DNA from: Tabrizicola flagellatus
GTDB taxonomy: Bacteria > Pseudomonadota > Alphaproteobacteria > Rhodobacterales > Rhodobacteraceae
Assembly: GCF_008271465.1 (NCBI RefSeq)
Contig: NZ_VMDU01000001.1
Location: 310,001-374,000 of the forward strand
Reading direction: 5' to 3'
DNA length: 64,000 bases
Both the position numbers and the translations under genes were made by a program. Positions 5,380 to 58,867 of the stretch are shown piece by piece (within the stretch, counting starts at the first letter, position 1; each line of letters starts with the position of its first letter). The notes under the pieces were generated by a model. That model saw nothing but the letters and a program-made list of their open reading frames with translations. It was not told the DNA's origin and ran no database searches.

Positions 5380-5387
5380 GGGAGCCC

Positions 5388-5410
5388 AGGAATTTTCGTC
5401 GAAAATTCCT
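5388..5410. terminator. Loop-less palindrome between convergent genes, probable bidirectional terminator
   Basis: A perfect 23-base palindrome with 11-base arms (AGGAATTTTCG / CGAAAATTCCT) around a single central T. It begins 9 bases after the XRE-cupin stop and ends 10 bases before the stop of the entericidin-like gene on the other strand. The A/T-rich centre gives a short U-run in both directions. It shares the AATTTTCG/CGAAAATT core with the palindrome at 36309. Confidence 0.6.
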
Positions 5411-5419
5411 GCGCCTGGA

Positions 5420-56309: not shown

Positions 56310-57275
56310 CTACCTCTGGGTCCGCGCCCAGTGGTAGAGGCAGATCAGCTCGTAGGCGACATGCGCCCCCGCGATCGCCGTCGCCCCGGTCGTGTCATAG
56401 GGCGGCGAGACCTCTACGATGTCACCGCCGACGAGGTTGATCCCGGCCAGATCCCGCAGCATCGCCGCCGCCTGCCAGCTGGCCAGCCCGCCCCAGACCG
56501 GCGTCCCGGTGCCCGGCGCGAAGGCCGGGTCCAGCGCATCGATGTCGAAGGTCAGGTAGCAGGGCTTGTCCCCGACGATGTCCTTCACCATGGCGACGAC
56601 ACGTTCCACCCCCCACTCGTGCGCCTCGCGCGCCGTGATGACGTTGACGCCCAGGTAGTCCTCGGTCGTGGTGCGGATGCCGATCTGGACCGAGCGTTTC
56701 GGGTCCACCGCGCCCGCCTTCACCGCCTTGTAGAGCATGGTGCCATGGTCGATCCGCGCGGGATTGTCGTCGGGCCAGAGGTCGGAATGGGCGTCGAAGT
56801 GGATCACGCCGAGGGGGCCGAACTTTTCCGCATAGGCCTTCAGGATCGGCCAGGTGATGTAATGGTCGCCCCCGAGGGTGACCGTCCCCGCCCCGGCCTT
56901 CAGGATGGTGCGGATGTGGTTGGTCAGCGTTTCGGGAAACTCCGGCACATTGGCATAGTCGAAAGCCACGTCGCCGTAGTCGATGATGGCCATCTCTTCC
57001 AGGGGGTTGGTCCCCCAGCCGGGCGGCGGGTCGTAGGGCATCAGGCAGGATGCCTCGCGGATCGCGCGGGGACCGAAGCGGGTGCCGGAGCGGTGGCTGA
57101 CCGCCTGGTCGAAGGGCACGCCGGTGATGGCGAGGTCCACGCCGGTCAGGTCCTTCGTGTATGTCCGGCGCAGGAAGGATGTCGCGCCGCCGAAGGCGTT
57201 TTCAAAGGCATAACCCCGCTGCGTGGGGCGGGTGAACGCAGTATCGACCTGCGTCTTGGCGTCTTCCAGGGCCAT
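56310..57275 (-). CDS. speB: Agmatinase / ureohydrolase
   Basis: A 321-residue arginase-family enzyme with the full set of manganese motifs: GGDHYITWP, HFDAHSDLWPD and FDIDALDPAFAPGTGTPV. The length and context favour agmatinase or a guanidino-acid hydrolase (urea plus putrescine or an amino acid). An in-frame start 36 bases upstream (57311) is possible. The upstream aminotransferase gene on the same strand could use the amine product. Confidence 0.9.
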   Translation of the reverse strand: MALEDAKTQVDTAFTRPTQRGYAFENAFGGATSFLRRTYTKDLTGVDLAITGVPFDQAVSHRSGTRFGPRAIREASCLMPYDPPPGWGTNPLEEMAIIDYGDVAFDYANVPEFPETLTNHIRTILKAGAGTVTLGGDHYITWPILKAYAEKFGPLGVIHFDAHSDLWPDDNPARIDHGTMLYKAVKAGAVDPKRSVQIGIRTTTEDYLGVNVITAREAHEWGVERVVAMVKDIVGDKPCYLTFDIDALDPAFAPGTGTPVWGGLASWQAAAMLRDLAGINLVGGDIVEVSPPYDTTGATAIAGAHVAYELICLYHWARTQR

Positions 57276-57387
57276 GGTGATGATCTCGGGTCTTGCGGCG
57301 CAGTCGTTCAACGGAGACGCGCGGATCCGGGAAGGGCAGGAAACCCCTGCCCTGCCGTCAAGTCAAGCACCTCGACCGGGCGGTCCG

Positions 57388-57409
57388 GCGATTTCTACGA
57401 AGAAATCGC
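57388..57409. repeat. First of three tandem mini-hairpins
   Basis: GCGATTTCT and AGAAATCGC, 9-bp perfect stem with loop ACGA. Lies in the gap between the aminotransferase and agmatinase genes. Confidence 0.7.
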
Positions 57410-57410
57410 A

Positions 57411-57432
57411 CCGGAGCCTTCAAAGGCTCCGG
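57411..57432. repeat. Second of three tandem mini-hairpins
   Basis: CCGGAGCCTT and AAGGCTCCGG, 10-bp perfect stem with a two-base loop, one base after the first. Confidence 0.75.
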
Positions 57433-57433
57433 T

Positions 57434-57455
57434 CCGGAGTTTTGGAAAACTCCGG
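57434..57455. repeat. Third of three tandem mini-hairpins
   Basis: CCGGAGTTTT and AAAACTCCGG, 10-bp perfect stem with a two-base loop, one base after the second and 5 bases from the aminotransferase stop. It shares the outer CCGGAG with the second hairpin but has a different inner arm. Confidence 0.75.
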
Positions 57456-57460
57456 CGCGC

Positions 57461-58867
57461 TCAGCCCAGCCGGAAGCCCTCGCGCACCAGTTCGTCCGTG
57501 ACCTGGCGGATGGCGCGCTCCAGCGTCTCGGCGACGAAGTCGATCTGGGCCTCGCTGATCACCAGGGGCGGCGACATCACGTTCAGATGCCCCATCGGTC
57601 GCACCAGAAGGCCCATCGCCTCGGCCGCGTTCGAGATGCGCTTCGACTCGTTCGCCGCCTCGGGCAGCACCGCCTTGGTCGCCTTGTCGGCCACGCTTTC
57701 CACGCACAGCATCAGCCGCCGCCCGCGCACGTCGCCGATCAGCGGCAGGTCGGCCAGCGCCGCCATCCGCGCCTCGAAATAGCGGCCCACCTTGTCCGCC
57801 TGCGCCATCAGGCCTTCGCGTTCCATGATCTCGATGTTCTTCAGCCCGGCGGCACAGGACACCGGATGGCCGGAATAGGTGAACCCCGCGGTGAACCAGC
57901 GGCTGCCGTCCGCCGCCATGGCGTCCCACATCCGGTCGCTGACGATCAGCGCGCCCAGTGGCACATAGCCCGAGGTCAGCCCCTTGGCCGTGCAGATCAT
58001 GTCGGGCTGCACGCCGAAGACCTCCCACGAGGCGAACCAGTGGCCAAGCCGCCCGAAGGAGGTAACCACCTCGTCGGCGATGAACAGGATGTCGTGACGC
58101 CGGCAGATGTCCCACATCCGCTTGAGATACCCGTCGGGCGGCACGATCACGCCACCCGAGGCCTGGATCGGTTCGGCGATGAAGCCGCCGATCCGGTCAG
58201 CCCCGACCCGGTCGATCAGCGCCTCGAACTCGGCTACCAGCCAGTCGCAGAACTCCGCCTCTGTCATGCCCTCGGGCCGGCGGTAGGGGTTCGGGACCGA
58301 AAGGTGATGGATCCCGTCCTCCTTGTAGCGGAATTCCGGCACCCGGTCACCCGGCCGCTTGCCCACCGACTGCGCGAGGTAGGTGGAGCCGTGATAGCTG
58401 TAGTCCCGCGCGACGATGTCGGTCTTGCCGGGGCGCCCCATGCAGGTCTGGTAATAGGCCACCGCCCGCACCGCCGTATCGACCGCGGTCGAGCCGCCCG
58501 TGGTGAACATCACCCGGTTCAGATCCCCCGGTGCCAGCTCGGCCAGCTTCGCCGCCAGCCGGGCCGAAGGGTCGTTCGTCACATCGACGAAGGTATTGGT
58601 GAAGGCCAGCCGCTCGGCCTGCTCGGCGATGGCCTGCGCCATCTCCTTCCGCCCCAGCCCGATGTTGGTGCACCACAGCCCCCCCACCGCGTCCAGATAG
58701 CGCCGCCCGTCCGCATCCCACAGGTAACAGCCCTCGCCCCGCGTGATGACCAGCGAGCCCTCTCGCTCGAAGGGTCCGAAATTCGTCCAGGGATGCAGAA
58801 CGTGGGCCCGGTCCATTTCCCAGAGATCGTGCGGGGTGGGCCGTGCCAGGGCCAGTTGGGCGGTCAT
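57461..58867 (-). CDS. Class III aminotransferase (omega-amino acid/putrescine type)
   Basis: A 468-residue PLP enzyme. Seen: YLDAVGGLWCTNIGLGRKEM, the substrate region FTNTFVDVTNDPSARLA, VMFTTGGSTAVDTAVRAVAY, FIAEPIQASGGVIVPPDGYL, ADEVVTSFGRLG and the PLP lysine 295 in CTAKGLTSGYVPLGA. This pattern fits putrescine/GABA/beta-alanine--pyruvate aminotransferases. With agmatinase downstream it suggests arginine or polyamine breakdown. A TTTGATCAAA palindrome lies 56 bases upstream of the start. Confidence 0.92.
   Translation of the reverse strand: MTAQLALARPTPHDLWEMDRAHVLHPWTNFGPFEREGSLVITRGEGCYLWDADGRRYLDAVGGLWCTNIGLGRKEMAQAIAEQAERLAFTNTFVDVTNDPSARLAAKLAELAPGDLNRVMFTTGGSTAVDTAVRAVAYYQTCMGRPGKTDIVARDYSYHGSTYLAQSVGKRPGDRVPEFRYKEDGIHHLSVPNPYRRPEGMTEAEFCDWLVAEFEALIDRVGADRIGGFIAEPIQASGGVIVPPDGYLKRMWDICRRHDILFIADEVVTSFGRLGHWFASWEVFGVQPDMICTAKGLTSGYVPLGALIVSDRMWDAMAADGSRWFTAGFTYSGHPVSCAAGLKNIEIMEREGLMAQADKVGRYFEARMAALADLPLIGDVRGRRLMLCVESVADKATKAVLPEAANESKRISNAAEAMGLLVRPMGHLNVMSPPLVISEAQIDFVAETLERAIRQVTDELVREGFRLG

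Follow-up and report, generated by a model that had tools for sequence, protein, structure and literature searches.

What are the three abutting hairpins between a class-III aminotransferase gene and an agmatinase gene of Tabrizicola flagellatus: a structure peculiar to this locus, or one member of a family that recurs at gene ends? Within the window (the whole stretch of 64,000 nucleotides that was analysed), the array comprises stem A (57388..57409; 9 bp, loop ACGA), stem B (57410..57433; 11 bp, loop CA), and stem C (57434..57455; 10 bp, loop GG), all three being listed without a strand. In an alignment of 74 copies (see below), the consensus of stem A is CGATTTCTTCGAAGAAATCG with one variable outer pair, that of stem B is CCGGAGCCTTYRAAGGCTCCGG, and that of stem C is about CCGGARTTTTCGAAAAYTCCGG. 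The flanking genes are both on the minus strand (aminotransferase, 57461..58867; PF00202, NF005447; agmatinase, downstream of the array, 56310..57275; PF00491, NF002564; start assigned with our own codon-usage gene caller), and the order along their transcription is the aminotransferase stop, stem C, stem B, stem A, and agmatinase. Between the edge of stem C and the aminotransferase stop (minus strand, TCA at 57461) lie 5 nt, and 112 nt separate the array from the called agmatinase start. The initial annotation had described three adjoining perfect stems between these genes, which we confirmed at 57388-57455 together with the loop sizes of 4, 2 and 2 and the distance of 5 bases from the aminotransferase stop. 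The stem lengths given there (9, 10 and 10 bp) hold for A and C, but stem B has an additional A-T pair and is 11 bp long; the bases taken for single-base spacers belong to this 11th pair, and the stems adjoin without spacers.

The region of the array folds with -53.4 kcal/mol (z -5.5), and none of 200 shuffled sequences was equally low. The total number of stems in the window is not unusual (32 of at least 8 bp; 19-35 in 10 Markov windows), but the adjoining of three stems is: the window contains 9 stems of at least 9 bp with loops of 4 or fewer (mean 3.4 and maximum 9 in 100 Markov windows), three of which adjoin, and adjoining stems of this kind were found in none of the 100 Markov windows. 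In the single-sequence fold, an outer helix closed the three hairpins into a cloverleaf; this was rejected, as the flanks of 140 copies pair no better than shuffled ones (mean 3.31 vs 3.45). A search of Rfam over 57000-57900 gave no family at the gathering score (two matches with 18.3 and 11.5 bits, vs 45 each).

The array is a dispersed, non-coding palindromic element of the genus Tabrizicola, of which the window holds one copy. With a 74-nt query (57386..57459, plus strand, on which the stems run A-B-C), BLAST found 11 near-full array copies of about 70 nt in the own 3.6-Mb genome, each with a match of at least 66 nt, so the search for similar arrays elsewhere in the genome, suggested in the initial annotation, was positive. 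A single-hairpin fragment of the array lies at C8:51620, a twelfth place was found at C3:284844 by pattern search (the match being the A-B junction), and a variant with an altered middle stem lies at another gene end (L310); array copies are present in both orientations. Of the earlier proposal of tandem copies of a mobile palindromic unit, the mobile palindromic part stands; the dispersed unit, however, is the whole three-stem array, not one stem tripled. Among 61 genomes, array matches were present in 29 (29/32 of the genus, 0/5 from other genera of the family, and 0/24 more distant), where the number of matches is not a copy number (15 candidates at most were scored per genome). The strict pattern has 0 to 37 places per genome of the genus, and it matched at least 115 stretches in a large named collection, in which the record titles among the matches listed were Tabrizicola, Rhodobacter sp., Xinfangfangia, Pseudogemmobacter, Gemmobacter, Fuscovulum, Pseudorhodobacter, and others. 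Two pattern matches (L094, L114) stand under the titles Peptococcaceae bacterium 1109 and Exiguobacterium profundum SSD5; these titles do not fit, and the assemblies may be mislabelled or contaminated. A family-wide spread was rejected, since the strict pattern was found in 3 of 295 genomes (2 of 294 genera) drawn across Rhodobacteraceae; likewise, a plasmid- or phage-borne array was rejected, with no match in the plasmid or phage collection at E 0.001. In the titles and the beginnings of abstracts listed, mostly outside subscription journals, no description of these elements was found; PMC13155455 is a general survey of hairpins and cruciforms.

Pairing was analysed with 74 of 151 distinct copies (70 picked for diversity and 4 own copies). 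In this alignment, the unit consists of A, B and C with a few variable bases between them, and 94.7% of the pair cells are paired. Both sides had changed in 10 of the 31 pairs (mean 5.6, sd 0.8 in 500 shuffles, none as high); when the partner columns were slid by 1-3, the pairing fell to 34.5-61.2% and the doubly changed pairs numbered 2-6. Paired changes are most numerous in stem C; the pair 59-70, for example, is GC in 32 copies, AU in 31, CG in 8, UA in 2, and unpaired in 1 (73/74 paired). Most copies of relatives were found via a pattern fixing one arm of A and one of B, with stem C and the outer pairs free, and the near-invariance of A and B is thus partly built in. At orthologous sites, 1242 pair cells were unchanged, 86 were doubly changed and still paired, 55 were broken on one side, 24 had turned to G-U, and 2 were broken on both sides; the cells in these analyses count sequences or ordered pairs of genomes rather than independent events, and those at orthologous sites include pairs of elements from different families when at least 60% alike. 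The doubly changed cells appear to exceed what independent mutation would give; the paired changes could also stem from copy replacement, amplification of subfamilies, or template switches within the palindromes.

The copies lie at gene ends. Placement was determined for the 151 distinct copies with genes called by a simple codon-usage gene caller, the copies of relatives being possibly orthologous and hence not independent. Gene gaps contained 139 of them, 4 were within called genes, and 8 were at the edges of the stretches, which leaves 139 of 143 classifiable copies in gaps when the edge copies are excluded. These gaps were convergent in 61 cases, co-directional in 75, and divergent in 3, for which uniform placement over intergenic bases expects 14%, 60% and 26%, respectively, although this null does not remove insertions near promoters, and such removal alone would enrich convergent gaps. 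The nearest stop was within 10 nt in 100 of 136 array copies (9.9% under the uniform null), with a median distance of 5 nt (null median, 86), and the mean position in co-directional gaps was 22% of the gap from the stop (50% if uniform). The orientation along transcription is balanced (A-B-C, 39; C-B-A, 36), and the lack of a preference is expected of a strand-symmetric device. Five or more T within the 9 nt after the array were found in 2 of 197 transcribed directions.

The array belongs to a wider palindromic set with the related cores CCTTCGAAGG, TTTTCGAAAA and TTTCTTCGAAGAAA. Further palindromes at gene ends came to light in 464 kb sampled from the own genome (the window and 20 stretches). 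A two-stem element, such as CAAATTCCTTCGAAGGAATTTG followed by CAAATCTTTTCGAAAAGATTTG with many paired variants (for example, L211:6109-6157 and the G001 sites L287-L306), reuses the cores of B and C with different outer arms, as judged by eye, and is present in 29 of the 32 genomes of the genus. All 49 copies placed were intergenic (23 convergent, 25 co-directional, 1 divergent), and 32 of 48 lay within 10 nt of a stop. With up to 2 mismatches allowed, a long single palindrome, CAAGAATTTTCG-N-CGAAAATTCTTG, occurs 31 times in the own genome, has paired variants, and is absent from 16 of the 32 genomes of the genus; every genome (32/32) has at least one of the three-stem, two-stem, and long-palindrome elements. 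One copy of the long palindrome lies in the window itself at 5387-5411 (CAGGAATTTTCG-T-CGAAAATTCCTG); the called stops of two convergent genes are 7 and 8 nt away. Competition between families was rejected, the counts of three-stem and two-stem elements not being significantly correlated (rho -0.19, p 0.31, 32 genomes). A further hairpin repeat, about CCCCTCCCCAC..GGGGGAGGGG, recurs in gene gaps (L198:11344, L208:15928, L210:6003, L212:2369, L212:12450, and L216:7569), and a longer repeat with CTCGTCGATGACTTCGTCACTCCTCG lies at the G000 gene ends L328 and L334, where relatives have the two-stem element; a similar one is found in L308.

The occupants of orthologous gene ends turn over between species. 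The slot of the window's own array was compared in 30 genomes with the aminotransferase gene. Six of them (G000, G001, G011, G012, G017 and G019) carry a three-stem array, always in the order C-B-A along the gene and, in two of the six, with one stem imperfect; G004 and G021 have a two-stem remnant, and G016 has a decayed copy. The other 21 lack an array, among them G026, the aminotransferase protein of which is 95% identical. In G017, GGAACC/GGTTCC replaces GGAGCC/GGCTCC in stem B, which is a paired change. No other palindrome family of the set was seen in this slot in the 21 array-less genomes. Directly after the aminotransferase stop and before a TTGACA-like box, 9 of these 21 have a TTTGATCAAA palindrome (L166, L173, L176, L180, L183, L184, L186, L192 and L193), found in 0 of the 9 genomes with an array, remnant or decayed copy there; this palindrome could be an operator whose place the array has taken.

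The gene ends of the own copies were compared by eye in G026, G021, G001 and G022 (30 of 39 matches), with L007 left out and G026 at L003 not counted (the location of the orthologue was unreliable). The array is present in G001, G021 and G022 at L003, where the four genomes have three versions of stem C, all perfectly paired; in G022 at L009, where G001 has a two-stem element and G026 worn palindromes; in G001 at L011, where G022 has an unrelated hairpin and G026 other sequence; and, slightly worn, in G022 at L004, where G021 has a two-stem element, G001 a different palindrome pair, and G026 a decayed copy. At L005, G001 and G021 have a two-stem element abutting the same preceding hairpin, G026 another palindrome pair, and G022 none; at L006, two-stem elements lie between matching flanks in G021 and, from another set, in G001. 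At L002, G026 has a decayed copy, G001 another repeat, and G021 and G022 other sequence; other sequence was also found in G001 and G021 at L008, and L010 is empty in G021. Of 15 two-stem sites of G001, 12 carry a two-stem element in G021 too (in some cases worn), 2 carry a different palindrome row there, and 1 is empty. In G000, the same 15 sites are occupied by a two-stem element in 3 cases, by a three-stem array or long palindrome in 3, by another repeat in 3, by an unrelated hairpin in 2, and by a decayed palindrome in 1, with nothing evident at the remaining 3. When 219 own gene ends that leave 50 nt of room were examined, 23% had a perfect stem of at least 8 bp within 70 nt. Hairpins are thus common at gene ends anyway, so that unrelated hairpins as occupants are weak evidence; a related palindrome row that has taken over the same position carries more weight.

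Insertion is polymorphic as well. A clean case is a two-stem element of G001 inside an ATGA gene overlap (L293) that is intact in G021 and G000; on either side of the insert lies a direct repeat, the two copies of which agree at 15 of 16 nt, with 14 extra nt. The 16-nt near-duplication at L293 leaves an ATG ahead of the downstream gene. Such a repeat was seen at this one site only, and a target-site duplication was not apparent at the L010 site.

The reading that we favour, holding it with evenly divided confidence, is that the array is a mobile, REP-like cassette of hairpins which would cap mRNA 3' ends whichever strand is transcribed. The comparisons show the dispersal, the placement, the paired changes, the insertion polymorphism and the turnover of occupants; the RNA-level function, the trimming, any termination, and the mechanism of movement are predictions from the sequence. 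Bacterial transcripts can be trimmed back to stem-loops. Passages of a paper on E. coli 3' ends (PMC7815308) contained no support for such trimming. The palindromic elements insert, or are kept, immediately after stop codons, and between species one kind of palindrome can take the place of another at a gene end. As each stem is palindromic, the same row of hairpins forms in RNA transcribed from either strand. Parsimony would put the function at the RNA level. Transcripts would run past the stop and be ended further on by Rho or other means; however transcription ends, the stable hairpins would stop 3'-to-5' exonucleases and fix the eventual 3' end, the transcripts being protected by the hairpins or trimmed back to them. 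An element between convergent genes would do this for the transcripts of both. Placement and pairing fit the putative mRNA-stabilising or processing array that the initial annotation had offered among its possibilities. The decayed copies of G026 at L002 and L004 and the orthologous ends that are empty count against the cap reading. A bolder reading, which we regard as doubtful, is that the gene ends of the genus are slots for interchangeable mobile hairpin cassettes, the families of which would be swapped, and the transcript ends of the genome thereby renewed, without a dedicated transposase, for example by template switching or by recombination through shared TTCGAA-centred cores. The 21 of 30 genomes with no array at the own slot lower both the cap reading and this interchangeable-slot reading.

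The same 21 genomes raise the main rival, namely that the element is selfish (REP- or MITE-like), does nothing for the host, is moved by some enzyme, and is tolerated at gene ends, where it would survive because it does least harm after stops and away from promoters; we consider this tentatively possible. It would account for the insertion polymorphism with the 15-of-16-nt direct repeat around the insert, the existence of decayed copies, the range from 0 to 37 strict-pattern places per genome, and the near absence of copies from divergent gaps. However, the copies seem to lie closer to the nearest stop (median 5 nt) than promoter avoidance alone would predict, the pairing is largely maintained at orthologous sites, another palindrome row occupies the same spot in several cases, and Y1_Tnp (RAYT) exceeded the cut-off in 0 of the 32 genomes of the genus (2 sub-threshold).

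A true intrinsic terminator, in which the GC-rich stem B would be the hairpin and the T-rich 5' arm of A (or C) the U-tract, is improbable. A terminator scan did call stem B on the minus strand with the tail GCGATTTCTT (1 found vs 0.2, sd 0.6, in shuffles), but the T-run begins some bases past stem B and inside a hairpin of its own, and C-B-A should dominate along transcription if this arm mattered, but C-B-A was counted 36 times and A-B-C 39 times. With five or more T following the whole array in 2 of 197 9-mers, and with the one scan match using the arm of stem A as its tail, the stacked terminator of the initial annotation, in the intrinsic sense, is weak. A device at the DNA level, i.e. 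a cruciform or a site for a protein (gyrase, nucleoid, or condensin-like) whose location at gene ends would reflect the build-up of supercoils between convergent genes, would agree with the palindromes, the strand symmetry and the enrichment in convergent gaps; we hold it to be quite unlikely, since it is odd for a sequence-specific site that the sequence of stem C varies while its pairing persists and that different palindrome families occupy the same gene end.

If the cap reading is true, mobile palindromes serve a bacterial genus as replaceable ends of its mRNAs, and the long-standing question of whether REP-like repeats are parasites or part of the transcript machinery could be tested in comparisons of one gene end across species. 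Genetic engineering would also gain strand-symmetric 3'-end elements that have no U-tract, and annotators would be warned that such arrays are members of a family rather than unique structures.

Among known systems, the array resembles intrinsic terminators in being stable hairpins right behind stops and between convergent genes, and differs from them in that it generally has no U-tract after it, has homologous dispersed copies, and has several hairpins in a row. According to its title, a 1987 study of a related bacterium, cited in PMC8625941, reportedly found that deleting hairpins between genes alters mRNA stability; our array likewise lies between genes, but is a dispersed family, unlike those hairpins of a single locus, and its role here is predicted. 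MITEs are small, non-coding, and insertion-polymorphic elements with terminal inverted repeats and a partner transposase. The array is also small, non-coding, and insertion-polymorphic; unlike MITEs, it has no inverted repeat common to both ends (the ends, stem A vs stem C, differ in the 74-copy alignment as judged by eye), no partner transposase was identified, and a duplication was seen at one site only. RAYT-driven REP/REPIN sequences were rejected, as PF01797 (Y1_Tnp) had 0 matches in the own genome; over the genus, 0 of 32 genomes exceeded the cut-off (2 sub-threshold matches, E about 5e-4 to 7e-4), and 5 of 14 control genomes were positive. No conserved GTAG/CGTC tag was seen by eye in columns 1-5 or 76-80 of the 74-copy alignment (4-5 nt of flank). 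The array hence does not pass as a RAYT-borne REP (transposase, tag), a MITE (inverted ends), or an intrinsic terminator (U-tract). For REPs, roles in supercoiling, transcription termination, and mRNA stabilisation have been hypothesised, and those with the CGTC tag are said to have no dedicated transposase, in the passages drawn on from PMC3733652; the words Rhodobacter, Paracoccus and alphaproteobacteria are absent from its main text. Like the GTAG/CGTC REPs as those passages describe them, the array is short, dispersed, extragenic, and palindromic, and unlike them it has no such tag visible and no RAYT over the cut-off in 32 genomes, consists of three fixed and different palindromes per unit, lies at a median of 5 nt from the nearest stop, and has 0-37 strict-pattern places per genome. 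Being dispersed, extragenic, palindromic, and present in many copies, the array is a REP-like repeat in the broad sense.
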